Assembly: GCA_947176605.1 (NCBI GenBank)
Contig: CAMWRH010000021.1
Location: 1 to 42,183, forward strand
Length of the DNA stretch: 42,183 nt
Direction: 5' to 3'
DNA from: an uncultured Porphyromonadaceae bacterium
GTDB taxonomy: Bacteria > Bacteroidota > Bacteroidia > Bacteroidales > Muribaculaceae
Both the position numbers and the translations under genes were made by a program. The stretch's first letter is position 1, and every line of letters begins with the position of its first letter. This document shows positions 1,747 to 26,673 of this stretch, one piece after another. Under the pieces are notes generated by a model. The model made no database searches. It saw nothing but the letters and a program-made list of their open reading frames with translations, and was not told the DNA's origin.

Positions 1747-2139
1747 CTACGGTTTGCATTTCTGGTTTTCCACCATATCGATAAGCTTGCGGAGCTCATC
1801 GACCGAGATTTTCTCTTCCTCTACGAGGTTGGACACGGCGGCCATATAATTGTCGGAGAAATAGCGCTTTACGAAATTCCCGAACCATCCCGAACGCACA
1901 CTTTCCATCTTCGTCAGAGGGTGGAAACGGTGCGAACCGCCTACTACCTCGTGGGCCACGTGCCCCTTCTGTTCGAGGATGCGCACGGTAGTGGCCACGG
2001 TATTGAAATGCGGTTTCGGGTCAGGATATTTCTCCACGATCTCGCGGACAAACATCGGACCATTCTGCCAGAGAATCTGCATTATCTCTTCTTCCTTTTC
2101 GGTAAGGGCTGATTTCGGTCGCCCGGCTTTCAGTGTCAT
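1747..2139 (-). CDS. BlaI/MecI/CopY-family transcriptional repressor
   Basis: A 130-aa winged-helix repressor with the usual family length. It begins with a helix-turn-helix region (LTEKEEEIMQILWQNGPMFVREIVEKYPD) followed by the recognition segment FNTVATTVRILEQKGHVAHE and a dimerisation tail (VSNLVEEEKISVDELRKLIDMVE). It is first in a two-gene operon with the M56 protease. Two identical half-site dyads in its promoter fit autorepression relieved by the protease (family knowledge plus inference). Confidence 0.9.
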   Translation of the reverse strand: MTLKAGRPKSALTEKEEEIMQILWQNGPMFVREIVEKYPDPKPHFNTVATTVRILEQKGHVAHEVVGGSHRFHPLTKMESVRSGWFGNFVKRYFSDNYMAAVSNLVEEEKISVDELRKLIDMVENQKCKP

Positions 2140-2302
2140 GGTTTTCTGTTTATTTGTTTTTATGGTTGGCCCCGGTTTTTACGGTTGCCCGGAGAATCAG
2201 GAATCCTCCGCGGGTAGGAGTCACCACTCCCCTACGGATCTCCTCCCCCTCTCAGGTTGGAGGTAGCGCCATATCGTGTCCCGGCGGATTACCATCCCTC
2301 CA

Positions 2303-2320
2303 TAACTAAAAAAATAGTTA
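2303..2320. promoter_or_regulatory. BlaI-type operator O1 near the transcription start
   Basis: A dyad TAACTA-A6-TAGTTA. Its core AACTA-N6-TAGTT is repeated 32 bp away in the promoter spacer. It overlaps the predicted start of transcription of the repressor/protease operon (about 2320, minus strand). Binding by the adjacent repressor is inferred. Confidence 0.7.
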
Positions 2321-2326
2321 CGCCTG

Positions 2327-2357
2327 CAAAGTTACAACTATTTTTTTAGTTTGCAAA
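2327..2357 (-). promoter_or_regulatory. Bacteroidota promoter of blaI-M56 operon with embedded operator O2
   Basis: On the minus strand: TTTG (2354-2357), 19-bp spacer, TAACTTTG (2327-2334), an exact match to the Bacteroidota -33/-7 pattern. The spacer contains the second dyad AACTA-N6-TAGTT (2336-2351), so a bound repressor would cover the whole promoter. The operator centres are 32 bp, about three helical turns, apart. Confidence 0.8.
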
Positions 2358-2476
2358 TTTTTTCGAAAAAAATTTCGCAGCGTCCCCTCACCGCACCCGG
2401 GGGATAAGCATAGAATGCATAAGTCACCTATCAGCCGGGATGTCGGCGGGGATGTTGTCGTACCCGCAGTATGTAC

Positions 2477-2520
2477 AAGCGGCTGCATCGCAGTATCTAA
2501 CTGCAACACAGCCGCTTTTA
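2477..2520 (+). terminator. Two-part hairpin, possible terminator without an upstream gene
   Basis: AAGCGGCTG (2477-2485) pairs with CAGCCGCTT (2509-2517), and GCAGT (2490-2494) pairs with ACTGC (2500-2504) inside, followed by TTTTA on the plus strand. No plus-strand gene precedes it; the rest of 2360-2535 shows no coding sequence. It may be a leftover terminator or the end of a small RNA. Confidence 0.4.
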
Positions 2521-2534
2521 ATCAGCTATACCTC

Positions 2535-2606
2535 TAAGTAAGTGTTCAAATTTAGACGATAGTAAATGAAAAGGAAAGTTTTTTGATGTCGCGCAGCTTT
2601 ATAATC
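2535..2606 (+). repeat. Diverged left-end fragment of the 186-bp MITE-like element
   Basis: The first 28 bases match the left end of the element at 16859 with one or two differences (TAAGTAAGTGTTCAAATTTA followed by a CGATAG core). The next ~40 bases keep only a loose resemblance (A-rich, then TTTT, then a GCGCAGCTTTAT core compared with GCGGCTTATT). No matching right end was found, so it is a truncated or much-decayed copy. Confidence 0.6.
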
Positions 2607-2669
2607 AAACGGTAGAGCATATGTTGCTTGAATCGATTTAACTGTTATTTTACAATAGTATCCCCATTA

Positions 2670-2685
2670 TCACCCTAAAGGGTGA
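2670..2685. promoter_or_regulatory. Operator 1, CACCC-N4-GGGTG dyad before the thiF-like gene
   Basis: Perfect 16-bp dyad TCACCCTAAAGGGTGA. Its centre is 30.5 bp upstream of the -7 element TATTTTTG (2708-2715), in place of a good -33 box, as expected for activator-dependent transcription. The same dyad core occurs at 4356 and 4406. Confidence 0.65.
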
Positions 2686-2707
2686 TTTCTTGAAGTCTAA
2701 ATATTTG

Positions 2708-2715
2708 TATTTTTG
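2708..2715 (+). promoter_or_regulatory. -7 element of the thiF-like gene
   Basis: TATTTTTG fits TAnnTTTG. The predicted start of transcription is near 2722, giving a leader of about 16 nt before the ATG at 2738. The -33 region has no TTTG, only TTTC, and abuts operator 1. Confidence 0.5.
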
Positions 2716-2737
2716 TATTCCTAAAAAGAGAACCTAT

Positions 2738-3508
2738 ATGGAAGAACTATATTCAAGAAATCATTTTTACATCACCAGTAAGGAACAGACAGCGCTTCGC
2801 AATACTCGGCTGTTATTTGGCGGAGCCGGCTTAGGGAGCAACATAGCTGAATGTGCCTTGCGTTTCGGATTTGAGAAGATAACGCTCATAGATGGCGACA
2901 AGGTCGAATTGAGCAATCTTAACCGTCAGAATTATCAGAGGTCAGACATAGGAAGATACAAGGCCGAGGCTTTGGCTGAGCGTCTCCTAAAAATAAATCC
3001 TGACGCTGACATCAGGTATCATTGCGAATATATTACAGAGGACAATATTAACAGGCTCGTCGATAATTGCGATATTGCGATAAACGCACTTGATTTCAGA
3101 GACGAGATTCCTTTTAAATTTGATGAAAGATGCCGGTCTATGAACGTCCCTATATTGCACCCGTATAATTTCGGATGGGGAGGACTTCTGATGATTGTCA
3201 CGCAAGAAAGTCTTCCTCTTTCGTCCCTGATGAGAAATTCAGATCCAAAAGGATTTGAATTGGAAATGGCAGAATATGTATCCGGATACAGCCAGTTTTG
3301 GAACATTCCGGAGAATGATTGGTTGCATCCTATTGTAGAAAGATATTCAGAGGAAAATGACAGCAATATTGTGCCACAACTGTCAGTCGGCTCATGGATT
3401 GTGAGTGCTATGTGTGTGGAGGCTATGTTCCGCATTTTGACAGGCAGACCAGTCAAAAAGTGTCCCAAATTTTATCTTACATCAATGGATAAAGTCTCGA
3501 TGTTATAA
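2738..3508 (+). CDS. ThiF/MoeB/HesA-family E1-like adenylyltransferase
   Basis: A 256-aa Rossmann-fold enzyme. The nucleotide loop is GGAGLG at residues 28-33, followed by the family signature DGDKVELSNLNRQ with its adenylate-binding Asp and Arg. Members activate the C-terminus of a small protein or peptide as an acyl-adenylate (ThiS, MoaD, MccA, ubiquitin-like proteins). The CxxC zinc pairs of MoeB/ThiF are not seen. The track's longer form starts at a TTG inside the promoter, so the ATG at 2738 is preferred. No thiamine, molybdopterin or ubiquitin-like gene is nearby, so the substrate is unknown. It ends 21 bp from the convergent LuxR-type regulator and carries the shared dyad in its promoter, which suggests common control. 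Confidence 0.8.
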   Translation: MEELYSRNHFYITSKEQTALRNTRLLFGGAGLGSNIAECALRFGFEKITLIDGDKVELSNLNRQNYQRSDIGRYKAEALAERLLKINPDADIRYHCEYITEDNINRLVDNCDIAINALDFRDEIPFKFDERCRSMNVPILHPYNFGWGGLLMIVTQESLPLSSLMRNSDPKGFELEMAEYVSGYSQFWNIPENDWLHPIVERYSEENDSNIVPQLSVGSWIVSAMCVEAMFRILTGRPVKKCPKFYLTSMDKVSML

Positions 3509-3529
3509 CCAACCAACATACAGAAAGGG

Positions 3530-4278
3530 CTATATAAGCTTATAGTTTGCTGCAAATGCAATCGCCTCACTTATGCTACTGACACCGAGTTTCTCGAATA
3601 TTGCCTTACGCCTTGACTTTATTGTGTCTTTTGCACGATGCACCCTGAGAGCTATATCATCTACCGTCAGTCCTCTTGCAGACAGCATGAGGACTTCTTT
3701 TTCTCTGTCCGTAAGTTTGATGCCTTCCCTTTCAATCCATTGATCAATGTCGGGTTCATAACACCAGTAGTTGGATTGCCCAATTTTGCGAACCTGAATA
3801 TTTCCGGCGCAATCGTTGTGCGAGATGGACACATAACATACGCCAAGCCACATGTGTCCATTTTATCCATCGCAAGAGGTGTAAGCTTGTGGCTAACCAA
3901 TACAGACTCTCCTTTGTTGACAATATGAAAGTCATAGCTTATGCTAAAAAGATGACGTTCTTCCTTTGGTTGCTTGCTGAAGAACTGGAAACCTACCGCA
4001 TTGATTTTCAAAAGCAGTTTCAATTCATCTTTAGGGACATGGGTCGTATAGAAACCATATCCCAACTCCATTACTTCGTCAGGAGTCAATCCGCATAGCA
4101 ACAGCGGATTGGGAGAGACATATAGAAAATTGCCCTTGAAATAATCTATTATATAAATACTTTCGTATGCTATTTGTCCGATTGCCTTTATTGCCTCGAC
4201 ATAGTTGCGAGCCCGCGCATAATCTTCCGGGGTTATACCCTCAGGTTTATTTAACGGAGTTTTGAATCTATCTGGCAT
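3530..4278 (-). pseudogene. PAS-LuxR transcriptional regulator, split by a -1 frameshift
   Basis: The N-terminal part (4278 to about 3866) is a PAS-type sensor (YIIDYFKGNFLYVSPNPLLLCG, then PLAMDK). The C-terminal part, in another frame from about 3860 to 3530, continues as GHMWLGVCYVSISHN and ends in a LuxR helix-turn-helix (LTDREKEVLMLSARGLTVDDIALRVHRAKDTIKSRRKAIFEKLGVSSISEAI). Adding one A to the AAAA tract (plus-strand TTTT, 3861-3864) rejoins the frames as ...MDKNGHMWLG... and gives 249 aa, the usual layout in Bacteroidota. Either the gene is inactivated, the tract is phase-variable, or the sequence has an error. It is the likely reader of the CACCC-N4-GGGTG dyads. Confidence 0.85.
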
Positions 4279-4307
4279 AATATGCTTTATCAGGTCTTTA
4301 ATTTTTG

Positions 4308-4315
4308 CAAAGATA
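4308..4315 (-). promoter_or_regulatory. -7 element of the PAS-LuxR gene
   Basis: Minus-strand TATCTTTG fits TAnnTTTG, about 30 nt upstream of the ATG at 4278. The -33 position shows only TTAC. Operator 2 (4356-4369) lies further upstream, centred about 61 bp before the predicted start. Confidence 0.5.
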
Positions 4316-4355
4316 ATAAAAATACGATTACTGTCGTAACATTTCTATAAATTAA

Positions 4356-4369
4356 CACCCTTTTGGGTG
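4356..4369. promoter_or_regulatory. Operator 2, CACCC-N4-GGGTG dyad
   Basis: CACCCTTTTGGGTG, same arms as operator 1 with TTTT in the centre. It lies between the divergent PAS-LuxR gene and the sigma operon, exactly 50 bp centre to centre from operator 3. Confidence 0.6.
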
Positions 4370-4405
4370 AAATCGTTCGTGGGAAAACCATTGAATATGC
4401 ACTTT

Positions 4406-4419
4406 CACTCTTTTGGGTG
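4406..4419. promoter_or_regulatory. Operator 3, CACTC-N4-GGGTG dyad
   Basis: CACTCTTTTGGGTG, one mismatch from the dyad core. A -7-like TTGTTTTG lies at 4443-4450, exactly the offset (centre +30.5 to +37.5) seen between operator 1 and its -7 element, so it probably activates rightward transcription of the sigma operon. Confidence 0.6.
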
Positions 4420-4442
4420 TTTTTTTTTGAGTTTGGATGATG

Positions 4443-4450
4443 TTGTTTTG
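4443..4450 (+). promoter_or_regulatory. Candidate activator-dependent -7 element of the sigma operon
   Basis: TTGTTTTG differs from TAnnTTTG by one base. It was picked because its distance from operator 3 equals that at the thiF-like promoter. A second -7 match, TACGTTTG, is at 4531-4538, and a GCGACCTTTTT run at 4539-4549 resembles the -35 of ECF promoters in this phylum; either could also drive the sigma gene. Confidence 0.4.
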
Positions 4451-4466
4451 CGAGAAAAAACTAATC

Positions 4467-4565
4467 ATGGAACAATTTTTAATTGCAGGAGAAGGATACA
4501 CTATCTATAAATATTTTAATGATGCGCGGTTACGTTTGGCGACCTTTTTCGTATCTATAATGTAA
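4467..4565 (+). CDS. Possible 32-aa leader peptide upstream of the ECF sigma gene
   Basis: A short ATG-to-TAA frame that begins about 10 nt after the predicted start of transcription from operator 3 and stops 3 nt before the sigma start codon, in the same frame. It has a charged/aromatic middle (YTIYKYFNDARLRL) and a hydrophobic end. It resembles no family I know. It could be a leader peptide, a peptide substrate for the thiF-like enzyme (speculative), an N-terminal extension cut by one stop codon, or chance. Confidence 0.25.
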   Translation: MEQFLIAGEGYTIYKYFNDARLRLATFFVSIM

Positions 4566-4568
4566 GTA

Positions 4569-5048
4569 ATGAAAACAGACAATCTAACATCCTCATTCTT
4601 GGCACTTCGTGACAAGTTGCACAGAAGCGCTCTGGGATTCCTCAAAAACGACGAGGATGCCAGAGATGCTTTGCAGGACACCTTCTTCAATCTTTGGAGA
4701 AATGGAGGTGTCGAAACGGAAACAGAAGCCCGAAACAAACTTTTTACCGTACTTAGGAACATCTGCATCGACAGACTCCGCAGGCCCAGGACTTATTCGC
4801 TCGATGAAACCGATACGGACAGTTTGGAAGTCAAGGCTTTCTCTTTTGAGGACATGGATCACTATGAATCATTGCTTACAACCGGACTCACGGATATTCA
4901 GAGGCATATATACTCTCTCGTCACACATGACGATATGGAGTACGATACAATAGCGGAAACCCTCGGCATGTCGGTCGAGGCTGTTAGAATGAATATGAGC
5001 CGGGCAAGAAGAAAGATACGTGATAACTTCAACCATCTCGAAAAATGA
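4569..5048 (+). CDS. ECF-type RNA polymerase sigma factor
   Basis: A 159-aa group IV sigma factor. Region 2 covers about residues 15-60 (ARDALQDTFFNLW), and region 4 about 105-155 with the helix-turn-helix YDTIAETLGMSVEAVRMNMSRARRKI. It directs RNA polymerase to a small regulon, normally held by an anti-sigma factor; the next gene overlaps it by 4 bp (ATGA), so the two are translationally coupled. No long sensor extension is present. Its likely targets include its own operon, which ends in an outer-membrane barrel gene. Confidence 0.93.
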   Translation: MKTDNLTSSFLALRDKLHRSALGFLKNDEDARDALQDTFFNLWRNGGVETETEARNKLFTVLRNICIDRLRRPRTYSLDETDTDSLEVKAFSFEDMDHYESLLTTGLTDIQRHIYSLVTHDDMEYDTIAETLGMSVEAVRMNMSRARRKIRDNFNHLEK

Positions 5049-5539
5049 AAGAGCAAGACGTAAAACTTACATTACAGGAAACAGAGCAGCTTTGCCGTCT
5101 GTATATGGATTGCAGGCTATCCGTTCTTGAAGAAACCGAACTGCAATATGTCCTCGGGAAATTGCCTTACTCATCGCCTTGCATTGACGAGGCGCGGATG
5201 CTGATGGGACTGACAATCTCAAAAAAAGCCCTAAAGTCATCAAAGAATAAATCCATATTTTGGAGAAGTAGGGCAACCATAAGTATAGCTGCTTCGATCA
5301 CCATTTTGTTGATAGCCGGAATTACTTTGTTCCATAATCAATCTATCAATGAACATAATCCTTCCGAAATGTATATCGCATACGCCGACGGGCATAAAGT
5401 GAGCCAAGAACAGACTATTCGGCAAGTAGAGGCAGATATGAAAACAGCAGAGGATTTTCTGAATCACATCGAAGAACTTGAATCGCAAGAACAAAGAATG
5501 GTCAACAACTTTATAAATCAAATATCCGCTGAACAATGA
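5045..5539 (+). CDS. Single-pass membrane protein, probable anti-sigma factor
   Basis: A 164-aa protein with a cytoplasmic N-terminal ~75 residues (LTLQETEQLCRLYMDCRLSVLEETELQYVLGKL), one membrane helix near residues 78-97 (ISIAASITILLIAGITLF) and a short periplasmic tail that includes a coiled-coil-like end. It lacks the zinc-binding ZAS motif. Identity rests on topology, a 4-bp overlap with the ECF sigma gene and the same overlap with the next gene (5536-5539). By analogy it binds the sigma factor and releases it when the periplasmic part senses a change. Confidence 0.65.
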   Translation: MKEQDVKLTLQETEQLCRLYMDCRLSVLEETELQYVLGKLPYSSPCIDEARMLMGLTISKKALKSSKNKSIFWRSRATISIAASITILLIAGITLFHNQSINEHNPSEMYIAYADGHKVSQEQTIRQVEADMKTAEDFLNHIEELESQEQRMVNNFINQISAEQ

Positions 5540-5916
5540 AACATTTTATAATATTTCTGACTTTGCTGTTTTCGTCTCTCACAGCGATGGCTAAGCCTCC
5601 GCACCTTGCCGCAGAGCAACTGTTTGACGGAAGATATAATACGGAAAAATCCGTCAGGACTTCAATATCAAAAGCCGACGGCTTTTATTATCGAAGCCTG
5701 CATATTACAAATAATCCCGGGATTATCAAGATTATAGAGACTGCCCTGAAAAAAGATGCTCCAAGAGCTTCAAAGTCTTTTGAACAGGAGGGAGAAGGAG
5801 GACGATATACCTCTCTCAAGATAATCAGCAATGGAGAAACCATTGACATCGGATTGCAGCAATATAATGGCTCTGCTTTCTTCTTTATTAAAGGTAAGGA
5901 AAAGGCTTTCAAGTAA
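5536..5916 (+). CDS. Small secreted protein of the sigma operon, DUF6108-like
   Basis: A 126-aa protein with a clear signal peptide (hydrophobic residues 4-18, cleavage near AMA-KPP). The mature part is about 107 residues of mixed alpha/beta character with no catalytic motif I can name. Bacteroidota sigma/anti-sigma operons often carry such a short exported protein of unknown function; the DUF6108 label is from memory and unverified. It overlaps the anti-sigma gene by 4 bp and is followed after 21 bp by the barrel gene, so it acts in the periplasm as part of the same response. Confidence 0.6.
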   Translation: MKHFIIFLTLLFSSLTAMAKPPHLAAEQLFDGRYNTEKSVRTSISKADGFYYRSLHITNNPGIIKIIETALKKDAPRASKSFEQEGEGGRYTSLKIISNGETIDIGLQQYNGSAFFFIKGKEKAFK

Positions 5917-5937
5917 ATAATCTTCACATAAAATTAT

Positions 5938-8076
5938 ATGAACATACTTCGTATGCTGCTCTTAGGAGTGGCGGCACTCCCTATGTGCCTTTTCGCCCAG
6001 GAAGCCAATGATTCAATCCCGGCTGAATGGGAGCGCGAACTTGAACTCAATGAGGTTGTGGTAGTGGCAACCCGTCCGGTTTTGAAACAGTCGCCCGACC
6101 GCATAGTCTACCTTATAAAGAACGACCCCTACGCATTGGGACTGAACGGTGTTCAGGTTCTTGACAGAATTCCCCGCGTCTCCGTGACGAACGATCAGGT
6201 CAGCGTCGCAGGCAAATCCTCTGTAAGATACATCATCGACGGACACCTGCTTGAAATGACCGACGAAGCGATTGCCTTGCGGTTGAAAAATCTCCAGTCT
6301 TCCGGAATTGAGAAGATAGAGCTGCTTACCACACCACCGGCGAAGTATGCCGCCTCCACGAATGTGGCTTACATCAGCATAACCACACGCAACGAGGCTC
6401 TTGGCACACGAGGCAACCTATGGGCCAACGGAACGGTACGCGAGGATTTCAGCTATCTCCTCGGCGGCAACGTCAGCCATACCACCAGAAAGGTGGAGAT
6501 TTCGGCAGATGTTAGCTGGCAAGACATGAAAGGGATTAACGATCTCGACAGGACATATACCTTCTCCGACTATGTGCGTACATCCGACCGCACGAATCAT
6601 TTCACAAACCGTTCCCTTGGTGCAAACGGACTGTTCAAATATAAGTTTAATGACCGTATCAGTGCGGGTGCCATCGTCAACTTCAGTACCATGAGGTTCA
6701 AAAGCAATCTGTTGGATGAAACAATAGATAACGGTGTTGCATATTATTCCCGCAATCTCTCGCCGGCGAAACCGAACAACGCAATCACGCTTACGGCATT
6801 CGGTGATTGGTCTATAGACTCCAAAGGCAAGATGCTGAGCCTTACTTACAATTTCTTCAACCGCCATACCCAGTCATTTTCCGATGTTACGACATGGCAG
6901 AATGAGAGTGACCCCACAAGGCTTACTGATGACGGCACAAACAAGTACCGGATACATTCTGTCAAACTTGATGCCGCCCTGCCATTTACCGCCTTCAGAA
7001 TGGACGCCGGAGCTGCATATACAGGTGTCAATAACAATACAGACCTTAAGGTTTCCGATTTAATGGATGGTAATTGGATAATCAATTCCTTGCAGAGCAA
7101 CACTTTTAAATACGACGAGAAGACAGCCGCCGTCTATGTAAGCGCGGAGAAAAGCTTCTCCAATTCATTCTTTGGTAAACTCGGACTCCGTTATGAGCAC
7201 ACGGATGTCAAGGGAATCCAGATGATTGACAATATGCGCCATGACAAAAGTTACGGCTACCTGTTCCCGTCACTCAATCTTAGCTGGAACTCGCAGAAAG
7301 CAGGACGTTTCTCTCTATCATATTCTATGGGCATAACACGTCCTAACTTCGGTGATCTGAACCCGTTCAGATATTATACCACAGTGAGCGACTGGTTCTC
7401 AGGCAATCCGGATCTTGACCCAAGCATTTCCCATAACGCCGAGATAAACTATAGTTTCAAAGGTGTTTATGCTGTGATTTACAACTCATACAACCATAAT
7501 GCCATCGGCAATATAACAAGATTCAATGCCGACGGAAGCCAATACACCCTTCCCGAGAATTGCCTCAACACCAACAAGACCGGTCTGTATGCCTCTTACA
7601 ACCGTTCGCTGTTCTCATGGTGGAATCTAAAACTCGGTGGAGAAGTGTTTTATTCGTTCGCCAAATCCAAAGTGCCGGATTTCAAGGAAGCGAACGACCA
7701 TGGCTGGAGCGGCAAGCTCGAACTAAACACATCGTGGATGCTGAACAGACAGAAGACTCTTATATTCAATCTCCGTTTCAGCCATTATTTCCCATGGAAA
7801 GACAGGATGATACATTACTCGTCAATATCTCTAATCGGTTGCGACATCCGTTATTCGCTTCTTAACAATCGCCTTAATCTTGCCCTCGCGGTTAATGATC
7901 CTTTCGGCTGGAATATCACGAAATCGAAGGCATACTATAACAATTATGTCGTAAATACTCGAAATGACGTACATTCACATGCGTTCACATTCAGAGTGTC
8001 TTGGTCTTTCGGCGGCAACAAGGTTAACAATGTTTATCGAGACTCCAAGGAACGAGAATCCAATCGTTCCTACTAG
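5938..8076 (+). CDS. Outer-membrane beta-barrel protein, TonB-receptor-like
   Basis: A 712-aa exported protein with a signal peptide ending near LFAQ. An N-terminal plug-like domain (VVVVATRPVLKQSPDRIVYLI..., RYIIDGHLLEMT, IEKIELLTTPPAKYAAS) precedes a ~550-residue barrel rich in alternating aromatic strands (LFPSLNLSWNSQ, INYSFKGVYAVIYN). The final residues after the strand FTFRVSWSFGG form a polar tail rather than ending on a Phe/Tyr. The usual N-terminal carboxypeptidase-regulatory-like domain is absent. It is last in the sigma operon and is probably its main output: an outer-membrane transporter or envelope-remodelling protein. Substrate unknown. Confidence 0.8.
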   Translation: MNILRMLLLGVAALPMCLFAQEANDSIPAEWERELELNEVVVVATRPVLKQSPDRIVYLIKNDPYALGLNGVQVLDRIPRVSVTNDQVSVAGKSSVRYIIDGHLLEMTDEAIALRLKNLQSSGIEKIELLTTPPAKYAASTNVAYISITTRNEALGTRGNLWANGTVREDFSYLLGGNVSHTTRKVEISADVSWQDMKGINDLDRTYTFSDYVRTSDRTNHFTNRSLGANGLFKYKFNDRISAGAIVNFSTMRFKSNLLDETIDNGVAYYSRNLSPAKPNNAITLTAFGDWSIDSKGKMLSLTYNFFNRHTQSFSDVTTWQNESDPTRLTDDGTNKYRIHSVKLDAALPFTAFRMDAGAAYTGVNNNTDLKVSDLMDGNWIINSLQSNTFKYDEKTAAVYVSAEKSFSNSFFGKLGLRYEHTDVKGIQMIDNMRHDKSYGYLFPSLNLSWNSQKAGRFSLSYSMGITRPNFGDLNPFRYYTTVSDWFSGNPDLDPSISHNAEINYSFKGVYAVIYNSYNHNAIGNITRFNADGSQYTLPENCLNTNKTGLYASYNRSLFSWWNLKLGGEVFYSFAKSKVPDFKEANDHGWSGKLELNTSWMLNRQKTLIFNLRFSHYFPWKDRMIHYSSISLIGCDIRYSLLNNRLNLALAVNDPFGWNITKSKAYYNNYVVNTRNDVHSHAFTFRVSWSFGGNKVNNVYRDSKERESNRSY

Positions 8077-22495: not shown

Positions 22496-22623
22496 TCCCG
22501 TATCGTTTTGATTTAAGGTTAACGGTTTAAGATGGCCTCCCCTCCCCTGCCGGATTGCGTAAGAGGGAGTGAAGGCGTGTGGAAAAATGTGGTGCGGGCT
22601 CCGCAGGCAGCGGCCTGTGGTGC

Positions 22624-22689
22624 AGCACCGCGACAAATTTAACGAATTTTCGCGAAGTGCGGAAATTTTCGGCATTGTTTTTCTGCCTG
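22624..22689 (-). repeat. 66-bp direct repeat copy A, carrying the kbl promoter
   Basis: Identical to 24525-24590 except for one base (22675 T versus 24576 C), offset 1901 bp. On the minus strand it contains TTTC (22662-22665), a 20-bp spacer and TAAATTTG (22634-22641), a full Bacteroidota promoter. The predicted start near 22627 leaves a leader of about 132 nt before kbl. Weak similarity continues beyond the repeat on the kbl side. Confidence 0.85.
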
Positions 22690-22726: not shown

Positions 22727-23215
22727 TCAAGGTATGAGGTCGGGCTGATTGGTAGAGACCTGCTTAAATGAGCAGTTATGATATTTTCTCTTAAATTCGC
22801 GTCTGGCCTTCTCATATGCGGTATTTGCATTATTGGCGGGAAATGATTTTGCCACGATTCTTGCATGAACCTCGTTGACTGACGGATGCTGGAAAATTCG
22901 GTTGTCGAGGGTAGCATCGAGTTGCTTCAGTGCATGAAGCACATCCTTACCCTTCAGTTCCACAAAAATGGATTTCCAGAATTCCACGTCACCATCATCT
23001 GCAGGTTTGTCCTGACGTGCAAGTATCAGGTAATCACACTTATTGCCTGCAGTGATTATTTTGCCGTCAATCTGATAAACCACCGACTGACGGCGGTGGC
23101 CAAATTTCAACTTATAAGTGGTATTCGTCTCCTTGATTGACAGGTTTTCTCTTTCTGTTAATGGCTGTGCAGGTGCATACGACTTTGACAGCACTGTGTG
23201 CAGCGATTCCGGCAT
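22727..23215 (-). CDS. Small PD-(D/E)xK nuclease-like protein paired with an ATPase
   Basis: A 162-aa protein I cannot place in a named family. It shows a restriction-nuclease-like pattern: Asp61 in CDYLILAR on a strand, then Glu86-Leu-Lys88 in SIFVELKGKD, followed by a helix with a Gln (DVLHALKQLDATL), as in PD-(D/E)xK enzymes. The Lys/Arg-rich C-terminus (YEKARREFKRKYHN) could bind nucleic acid. It starts 2 bp after the ATPase gene ends, so the two are surely co-translated partners. Base composition is more AT-rich than flanking genes. Most likely the effector of a two-gene defence-type cassette; a non-defence DNA-processing role is also possible. Confidence 0.6.
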   Translation of the reverse strand: MPESLHTVLSKSYAPAQPLTERENLSIKETNTTYKLKFGHRRQSVVYQIDGKIITAGNKCDYLILARQDKPADDGDVEFWKSIFVELKGKDVLHALKQLDATLDNRIFQHPSVNEVHARIVAKSFPANNANTAYEKARREFKRKYHNCSFKQVSTNQPDLIP

Positions 23216-23217
23216 AC

Positions 23218-24441
23218 TTATTGGCAGATTATATCATTAAGACGGTCAAGATTATCTTCCACATACTGCGACACACTGTCGAGGTTCATTCCGCTGACCA
23301 TATATAGTTCGGAATCCACAATATTGACGGCGTGTCCGTCGGGTGTGAGATAGTAGGCCGATATACTTCCTTTGGGAAGTATATACTCTTCAGGCACGAT
23401 ATCCGCAGTGGCCTCCGGATCTATATCATATGCCAGAGAGGCAGCCATCAATACGTTCAGCGCCGACAGTATATACGGACTGTGGGTAGTGGTCAGCACC
23501 ATAGAGCGGCTGCCGCCGTATTTTATGTTTGCGGATTTTATTGCCGCCACAATGTGTCGGAGCAGATTGGCCTGCGACTCCGGGAAGAGGTTCTGCTCTA
23601 TCTCCTCAATAAAGAACACAGCTCCCTGATATGTCATCAGATTCTTGTTCAACTTACTTTCCGCCACCACCTTGTCGATATCTGTGTCATCATTAAGCAG
23701 CGAACTTACGATATCCATAATATCGCTTTTACTCATGTTGGCTTTTGTACCCACGGCATTTGTAATGGCATTTACCATTACTTCAAGGGGCAATGCCGAC
23801 TGGACTCCGCTTGAAGCATAGAATGGTGAGATCTCCTTCTGGCGGCTGGTAAGACGCACCTGCTCGCCACGCGACTTATCGTAATAGAACTCCATGTCGG
23901 GAGCTACTACAAGTGGCAGCGGATTCGACGGACTGTATGATTCGCGCACCTCATCCCACTCGAAAATAAAATTGAAGAGCAAATCATAATCCTTCGGGCG
24001 ATACCAGGATTCTATATCCTTTATGGCCGATATGAGGTTTCTCTCGGATGGTATGAAACTTAATTTCGCGTTATAAGGTGCCGCGCCTGGGATAGATTCG
24101 ATTCTTGCATTGGATTTATGATTACCCTTAAGCTCTATCCTGTAGGTATCGCCGATATAGATAATCTCACTGTCGGTGGAGAAGAATTTGGGATCAATCC
24201 TGTAGAATTTAATCAGGTCCTGCACAAACCGGTAATAGTGAGTGTAAAGATAGAGGCTTGATTTGCCATCCTTACGGCGTCCTGTGGATATGAGTTTTTC
24301 GACATAACGGCAATGGCTGCATATTTTAAGCAGGGTACTTTTGCCGGTGCTCTGTTTACCTATAAACAGGTTGATTGTCTTCAATTCAATGACCCCGGTG
24401 TCTGCAATAGGACCTATTGATTTAATCTGTATGGTTGCCAT
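23218..24441 (-). CDS. AAA/ABC-type ATPase of the OLD/AAA_15 kind
   Basis: A 407-aa P-loop ATPase of the class used in overcoming-lysogeny-defect-like and other phage-defence systems. Walker A is GKQSTGKST (residues 28-36); the ABC-signature-like ASSGVQSALPLEV is near 205; Walker B is VFFIEEIEQNLFPESQ near 274-289 with catalytic Glu; the switch motif TTTHSPYIL is near 315. There is no C-terminal Toprim domain, so any nuclease activity must come from the partner encoded 2 bp downstream. Transcribed from the duplicated promoter repeat at 24525-24590 with a leader of about 85 nt. It resembles PtuA, AriA and GajA-type ATPases in outline, but the partner differs from all of these. Confidence 0.8.
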   Translation of the reverse strand: MATIQIKSIGPIADTGVIELKTINLFIGKQSTGKSTLLKICSHCRYVEKLISTGRRKDGKSSLYLYTHYYRFVQDLIKFYRIDPKFFSTDSEIIYIGDTYRIELKGNHKSNARIESIPGAAPYNAKLSFIPSERNLISAIKDIESWYRPKDYDLLFNFIFEWDEVRESYSPSNPLPLVVAPDMEFYYDKSRGEQVRLTSRQKEISPFYASSGVQSALPLEVMVNAITNAVGTKANMSKSDIMDIVSSLLNDDTDIDKVVAESKLNKNLMTYQGAVFFIEEIEQNLFPESQANLLRHIVAAIKSANIKYGGSRSMVLTTTHSPYILSALNVLMAASLAYDIDPEATADIVPEEYILPKGSISAYYLTPDGHAVNIVDSELYMVSGMNLDSVSQYVEDNLDRLNDIICQ

Positions 24442-24524: not shown

Positions 24525-24590
24525 AGCACCGCGACAAATTTAACGAATTTTCGCGAAGTGCGGAAATTTTCGGCACTGTTTTTCTGCCTG
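24525..24590 (-). repeat. 66-bp direct repeat copy B, promoter of the ATPase-nuclease cassette
   Basis: Second copy of the repeat before kbl, in the same orientation, with TTTC (24563-24566), 20 bp and TAAATTTG (24535-24542). The predicted start is near 24528. The repeat and cassette form a 1901-bp unit whose removal would restore a single promoter directly before kbl. Confidence 0.85.
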
Positions 24591-24603
24591 TCCCAATTTG
24601 TAT

Positions 24604-24759
24604 GCCATATGCGCGTCTGCGGAATGTCGAGAAGAATTCAGAACACTTAAAGACCGGGCTGAGGAAACCGATAAGACTCATTGCAACCGCGTATGGGATT
24701 TGCAGCAACTCGAGAGGCAGAAGAAGCACAAGGAAAGTATCGTCAGAGGTTACCAGTAG
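24604..24759 (+). pseudogene. Possible gene remnant upstream of the cassette
   Basis: In the 327-bp stretch 24591-24917 between the cassette and the serine hydrolase, one plus-strand frame without a start codon encodes about 51 charged, coil-like residues (EEFRTLKDRAEETDK... LQQLERQKKHKESI) before a stop. It looks like a decayed coding fragment, perhaps of a transposase or other accessory gene, but I do not recognise it. An antisense frame (SLFFELLEDSLAAKMETVVV at about 24880-24825) is an alternative. Confidence 0.25.
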
Positions 24760-26454: not shown

Positions 26455-26673
26455 TCATTCAGGCAACACTCCTTTCTCCCTCATGTATTCGGTGAGGTCT
26501 TCCACGAGATAGCGTGAACTGAAAGTGTGCAGTACGTCATACGACGGCACAATATAGTCGTACAATATGCCAGACTGCTTCAGTCGCCGATATACATCTC
26601 GCTGGCTTAGATTCAGCACACTCGCGAGTTTGCAAATGCAGTATGTTACAAATTCAAGAGTTTTAGTATCCAT
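26455..26673 (-). CDS. DUF3791-like small protein
   Basis: A 72-aa protein resembling DUF3791 members, which share a pattern like LEFVTYCICKLASVLNLSQRDVYRRLKQSGILYDYIVPSYDVLHTFSSRYLVEDLTEYMREKGV. A GGAGG ribosome binding site 8 nt before the ATG supports the start. In many genomes this family is paired with a DUF3990 partner in apparent toxin-antitoxin loci; no partner is visible on either side here. The 343 bp between it and the serine hydrolase (26112-26454) is AT-rich and shows no gene. Confidence 0.7.
   Translation of the reverse strand: MDTKTLEFVTYCICKLASVLNLSQRDVYRRLKQSGILYDYIVPSYDVLHTFSSRYLVEDLTEYMREKGVLPE

Follow-up and report, generated by a model that had tools for sequence, protein, structure and literature searches.

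An OLD-like ATPase and a small PD-(D/E)xK-type protein form a conserved gene pair and candidate defence cassette, bracketed by direct repeats in a Muribaculaceae genome

We analysed a 42,183-nt stretch of DNA (contig CAMWRH010000021.1, hereafter the window) from an uncultured bacterium of the family Muribaculaceae, in which two adjoining minus-strand genes encode an ABC/OLD-type ATPase and a small PD-(D/E)xK-type protein. The same pairing recurs in homologous loci of varied settings, including plasmids and viral contigs, and the window pair falls in a distinct clade beside the PADLOC candidate family PDC-M29. The two genes are a real and conserved pair, probably with an immune role. More specifically, we put the probability at roughly 60% that they act as a self-contained cassette against phages (or mobile elements), of the kind that joins an OLD-ABC ATPase to a nuclease.

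The first gene of the pair (23218..24441) starts with ATG and encodes a 407-aa protein that scores above the cut-offs of the Pfam models AAA_21 and AAA_15 (PF13304/PF13175). A preliminary description, made from the sequence of the window alone, had assigned to it Walker A and B motifs, a THSP switch and no Toprim domain, and all of this holds. Walker A (GKQSTGKST, with residues 28-35 at 24337..24360), an ABC-signature-like SSGVQS, Walker B (FFIEE, residues 276-280, 23602..23616) and the switch are present, and an alignment of nine homologues leaves G28, Q30, G33 and K34, E279/E280 and T319-H320-S321-P322 invariant. No Toprim was found in scans with the Pfam and NCBIfam models. Among PDB sequences, the best matches of the ATPase profile are weak, namely the retron Eco8 OLD nuclease (2e-5) and an OLD-family entry (6e-5), with RAD50 alongside the OLD sequences. 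By its ABC-type motifs and OLD-like sequence, the protein fits an OLD-family ABC ATPase at the sequence level.

The second gene (22727..23215) also starts with ATG, 2 nt past the ATPase gene, and encodes the 162-aa protein of the preliminary description. Its predicted catalytic core, the span from D61 to E86-x-K88 (22952..23035), lies exactly where it had been placed. C60, D61, E86, K88 and Q98 are invariant in 9/9 aligned sequences, all of which carry the D...(D/E)xK residues by which the PD-(D/E)xK superfamily is recognized at the sequence level. A modest AlphaFold2 model of the protein (predicted local distance difference test score, pLDDT, 69) resembles PD-(D/E)xK nucleases, with XPF/MUS81 and EndoMS among the fold matches. 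The AT-rich composition noted earlier is likewise found, the ATPase and small-protein genes having 45.6% and 45.2% G+C against 52.7% for the whole window.

Conserved co-occurrence of the two genes had been proposed as a check. We collected ATPase homologues from genomes of the family (59/397 at 1e-10), the order (26/374 at 1e-18) and, with the PDC-M29A model, the phylum (20/296 at 1e-15), and from named genomes (10 loci) and viral contigs (7 loci). Two further distinct loci, L153 and L155, were collected with the nuclease profile itself. The 117 loci with an ATPase open reading frame (ORF) reduce to 88 distinct ones, of which 84 have at least 300 aa and 80 have a partner. No partner was called in L083, which lies at a contig end, or in L021, L137 and L092, the last of which has a likely partner with a longer overlap that surfaced among the decoys of the clade nuclease profile search. 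The strict partner motif, C[DE]...ExK, written after the partners had been viewed, is present in 67/80 distinct loci (69/80 by the loose motif). The corresponding counts are 1 (7)/318 for other ORFs 130-215 aa long and 15 (68)/1600 for shuffled partners. Without L153 and L155 the strict count is 65/78. The pairing of ATPase and nuclease is far beyond chance. At the gene junction, 30 of the 80 pairs overlap by 4 nt.

Among the 59 family genomes with an ATPase homologue, 11 have one with at least 43% identity over most of the protein, including the window's own and one that is split, and the nuclease profile found only 4/375 class genomes, the window's own genome counted. In viral contigs, neither protein used singly as a query nor the nuclease alignment yielded a relative; the ATPase alignment yielded the seven loci.

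Eleven of the 80 partners fail even the loose motif. Seven of these are in L131, L134, L129, L130, L087, L026 and L095, and a variant of the motif can be seen by eye in all except L087 and L095. The other four, in L040, L045, L066 and L148, are a different protein with an invariant E10 and D51-x-D53, which we take to be Toprim-like by comparison with the Toprim motif; Pfam and PDB searches with these partners gave no support for Toprim. Their ATPases form one clade (support 100/99) nested among ATPases with ExK partners, and this nesting suggests that effectors may have been exchanged behind a common ATPase.

The preliminary description had called the pair undescribed, which does not stand. 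The ATPase matches PDC-M29A over nearly its full length (6.4e-48, residues 2-385, profile positions 3-383 of 410), the PDC-M29B partner of that family is an analogous small ExK protein, and dyads of OLD-ABC and PD-(D/E)XK proteins appear in print in a 2026 BREX survey (PMC12839542). With PDC-M29 the window pair shares the nearly full-length ATPase match, the gene order with an ExK-type gene directly following, and the size class. It differs in that its nuclease has no PDC-M29B match, in its ATPase score, which at 164 bits is far below the 589-634 of the 12 top loci (L002-L013), and in its place in the ATPase tree. In that tree of 78 sequences, the window falls in a clade of 12 (support 100/100, branch 0.92), and the core PDC-M29 loci sit in a separate clade of 29 rows. 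Partners that do match PDC-M29B occur in L002 (5e-62), L010 (2e-59) and L007 (6e-47); the first two of these stand next to core PDC-M29A genes. The nuclease profile of the window's clade reaches other partners strongly (L044 at 4e-41, L088 at 1e-14) and the M29B-type partners only weakly, with E values of 0.0003-0.25. The decoys set in at 0.046, apart from a single lower 'decoy', that of L092, which is likely a true partner. A match to an already named family, an outcome the preliminary description had allowed for, was thus obtained for the ATPase and not for the nuclease. The ATPase is kin and the build is the same, but the small protein gave no PDC-M29B match; the pair is a diverged variant of PDC-M29, itself an uncharacterised candidate. 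The clade of the window pair is a distinct and well-supported neighbour of a candidate defence family, with predicted catalytic residues available for mutation.

The BREX survey describes OLD-ABC ATPases paired with HNH, PD-(D/E)XK or PIN nucleases that replace Toprim in 594 taxa, and cites Krishnan et al. 2020 for such pairs (PMC12839542). The PD-(D/E)XK dyads beside BREX resemble the window pair in build, having a nuclease in the place of Toprim with an ABC/OLD ATPase, and may or may not belong to the same protein families; no BREX-type family was found by Pfam among 14 other window proteins. The term PDC-M29 is absent from the literature searched, and the same searches, several of them aimed elsewhere, returned no experimental report of this pair, with the systems validated with DefensePredictor (PMC13092281) left outside the comparison.

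Known two-gene relatives carry other effectors, as had been proposed. The genes flanking the window pair belong by Pfam to an aminotransferase family on one side, presumably kbl-like to judge from the match, and to a beta-lactamase family on the other. As in PARIS (AriA/AriB), ATPase and nuclease are encoded by separate genes and the window ATPase has a partial AriA match (3e-14), whereas its partner has no AriB-like Toprim/DUF4435 match in Pfam, NCBIfam or PADLOC. As in Septu (PtuA/PtuB), an ATPase is joined to a small nuclease in two genes and there is a partial PtuA match (3e-8), whereas the same three collections gave no PtuB-like HNH match. Unlike Gabija, the window has no GajA-type Toprim in its ATPase and no GajB helicase gene adjoining.

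By analogy with these three systems (established knowledge; PMC10568477 and PMC12839542), the most likely mode of action is that the ATPase restrains the nuclease and activates it on a phage cue. The ATPase would dimerize in the ABC manner and keep the small PD-(D/E)xK nuclease inactive. It would sense a cue of infection, whereupon ATP binding or hydrolysis would free or activate the nuclease. The nuclease may then cleave phage DNA, and probably host DNA too, so that phage spread is stopped.

The accessory and mobile setting anticipated for the pair is seen in its relatives. The pair in L079 (82% identity) has TmtA-like and MkoA-like genes as neighbours. A Muribaculaceae strain carries a relative at 68% on a mobilizable MOBV plasmid of 18.8 kb, and relatives at 44% on a Bacteroides finegoldii plasmid, within a polysaccharide locus, are annotated as AAA family ATPase and hypothetical protein. 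On viral contigs, the pair directly follows P22-like portal genes in L089 and L094 and lies near a Mu F-like gene and terminase in L091. Microcystis phage Mic1 encodes a 28%-identical ATPase (L158, 3001-4239) beside a DNA adenine methylase. Such varied plasmid and viral settings are circumstantial evidence, being what is expected of a defence gene on rival mobile elements. As a separate observation, a resolvase/invertase-like gene (by eye; 6710-7273 of L157, the Muribaculaceae plasmid) starts 9 nt past the nuclease gene.

Several results weigh against a defence cassette with a PD-(D/E)xK nuclease. The AlphaFold2 model of the ATPase reaches a pLDDT of only 37. Foldseek with the model of the small protein found nothing at E 0.001 or better, its fold comparison stayed at VIA Z < 8 throughout, and acetyl-CoA carboxylases made up 11/50 rows. 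The small protein has no credible Pfam match and none to PADLOC (0 families, searched up to E 1), NCBIfam or PHROGs models, and PDB sequence searches with it gave nothing credible. The neighbours of clade members are by eye mostly housekeeping-like, as in L081, L063 and L086. As to a defence-island neighbourhood, also proposed as a check, a PADLOC scan covering 7 neighbour proteins in 6 loci of the clade gave strong matches for the two in L079 only. Finally, the Mic1 ATPase has no adjoining ExK partner of at least 90 aa.

The most surprising part of the analysis is a 66-nt direct repeat that brackets the cassette. One copy (24525..24590) lies 83 nt before the ATPase gene and the other (22624..22689) 37 nt after the nuclease gene, between it and the kbl-like gene. 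The copies are identical at 65/66 positions and are the only two in the whole assembly. An insertion reading would draw on this one case, on an imperfect uninterrupted counterpart in a relative, and on two parallels in other loci. Most likely, entry of the cassette left 66 nt of the target doubled, one copy on each side, in which case some of the sequence upstream of the kbl-like gene, and perhaps the promoter of that gene, would have been duplicated. The repeat could also be a small repeat element that predates the cassette.

The counterpart is in genome G645, an incomplete assembly (86% complete), where a 185-nt stretch of L075 (6216-6400) corresponds to window 22534-22689 and continues without a break into 24591-24620. 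Here the flanks are joined, the cassette is missing and a single repeat copy is present. It sits 2.7 kb from the kbl-like gene of G645, beside a ligase gene piece that recurs at the contig end, and a second, diverged repeat copy (85-87% over ~60 nt) lies directly upstream of that kbl-like gene. Because of this distance and the kbl-like gene's own repeat copy, the stretch falls short of a clean empty site at the corresponding position. It is also 96-99% identical to the window where the kbl-like genes are 87% alike, an unexplained discrepancy. The two ligase gene pieces (L075 5356-6226 and 9345-9581) lie on one contig, with the cassette-free flank beside the first, and reflect a rearrangement or an assembly fault; a PDC-M13B-type gene (4332-4904) also stands near the kbl-like gene there. 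At most 1.5 kb of upstream sequence was viewed at 30 kbl-like loci, the best of 95 matching genomes with the window's own counted; in 6/30 of them a ligase gene precedes the kbl-like gene by 45-296 nt. The two genes are 4.4 kb apart in the window, and the stretch between them is therefore accessory.

We asked how often flanks are repeated in the 73 of 80 pairs that have 200 nt or more of flanking sequence on each side. At a cut-off of at least 50 bits, repeats flank 7/73 pairs against 4/751 size-matched random intervals from 26 loci (Fisher p 8e-6); an earlier run of random intervals gave 1/630, and kbl-like control loci gave 0/24, the best at 39 bits. Four cases were discounted: the L087 repeat (G441 contig C118) is dispersed, matching at 18 places in the genome, L007 lies in a repeat-rich stretch, and the repeats of L014 and L010 are only 75% alike and only 33 nt long, respectively. 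The clear cases are the window (2 copies), L088 and L066. In L088 the repeat has 2 copies, a doubling of 136 nt that takes in the start of a glycosyltransferase-like gene. In L066 (genome G1403) it measures 199 nt at 94%, with 2 full copies and one weak copy at 76%; one end of it, ~27 nt, has 31 further short matches in that genome. The three repeats are mutually unrelated and share the same plan. Taken alone they give 3/73 against 4/751 (p 0.018), the null matches not being pruned likewise. The absence of a repeat at this cut-off in 66/73 pairs weighs against the insertion reading, and together with the one dispersed element it makes these few cases, not a rule. Among the 66 are 9/10 tested members of the window's own clade (L079, L058, L081, L084, L063, L089, L127, L128 and L086), the window being the sole exception; L080 and L078 have too little flank.

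Inside the repeat, TAAATTTG (24535..24542, minus strand), 101 nt before the ATPase start codon, may be a Bacteroidota -7 box, and the repeat copy upstream of the kbl-like gene has it too (22634..22641, minus strand). The likeness is a pattern match without chance control. A paired -33/-7 promoter pattern gave no match, so that no -33 box was found to go with TAAATTTG, and sigma-70 and terminator scans did not rise above chance (4 vs 4.6 and 2 vs 2.2).

Insertion with long target duplication has been described for restriction-modification genes (Nobusato et al. 2000, as relayed in PMC3031569). The window is alike in that a cassette lies between long direct repeats seemingly made from the target, and differs in that the cassette is an ATPase-nuclease pair. 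Extended to the superfamily, pairs of this kind would be independent immune cassettes that move although they encode no recombinase. They would enter by a long target duplication able to copy the target's promoter or 5' end, so that the target stays intact and the cassette is expressed at once, and would be removed cleanly by recombination between the copies, with effectors, PD-(D/E)xK or Toprim-like, swapped behind the common ATPase. We regard this as doubtful, the more so in view of the diverged second repeat copy in G645 and the nine clade members without repeats. The repeat bracket and the uninterrupted flank in a relative make gain and loss of small units testable and tie the window to the old restriction-modification report.

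The repeats also bear on an alternative that we consider unlikely, in which the pair is toxin-antitoxin-like, a selfish addiction unit whose ATPase-restrained nuclease toxin maintains the cassette or a plasmid, with defence at most a by-product. The compact unit of two often overlapping genes, the plasmid carriage and a repeat-flanked insertion of the kind reported for restriction-modification genes would all suit it; carriage on viral contigs beside structural genes and the TmtA-like neighbour in L079 fit defence better. Distinctly improbable is a RecF/SbcCD-like module for repair or recombination, in which the ATPase brings a structure-specific nuclease to DNA ends and the pair has no immune role. 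RAD50 and OLD among the weak PDB matches of the ATPase and XPF/MUS81 and EndoMS among those of the nuclease fold point that way, against which stand the varied sites, the phage and plasmid carriage and the patchy distribution (59/397 family genomes, 11 of them at 43% identity or more). PD-(D/E)xK proteins are usually DNA enzymes. The small protein is of this type and has no Toprim match, which speaks against its release to cleave tRNA or other RNA. Such an RNA-directed effector, suggested by the partial AriA-like match and by AriB of PARIS, reported as a tRNA-cleaving Toprim nuclease (PMC12409363), is the least probable of these. A stand-alone defence cassette remains the reading we prefer.

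Elsewhere in the window, a minus-strand gene at 26455-26673 encodes a DUF3791 protein that matches the PADLOC candidate PDC-M13A (3e-25); no DUF3990-type partner was noticed adjoining it. The stretch 2001-8000 has a lower G+C content (40-50%) and contains ThiF-family, sigma-70-like and outer-membrane beta-barrel genes; after these come one gene resembling SusD and one resembling a TonB-dependent receptor.
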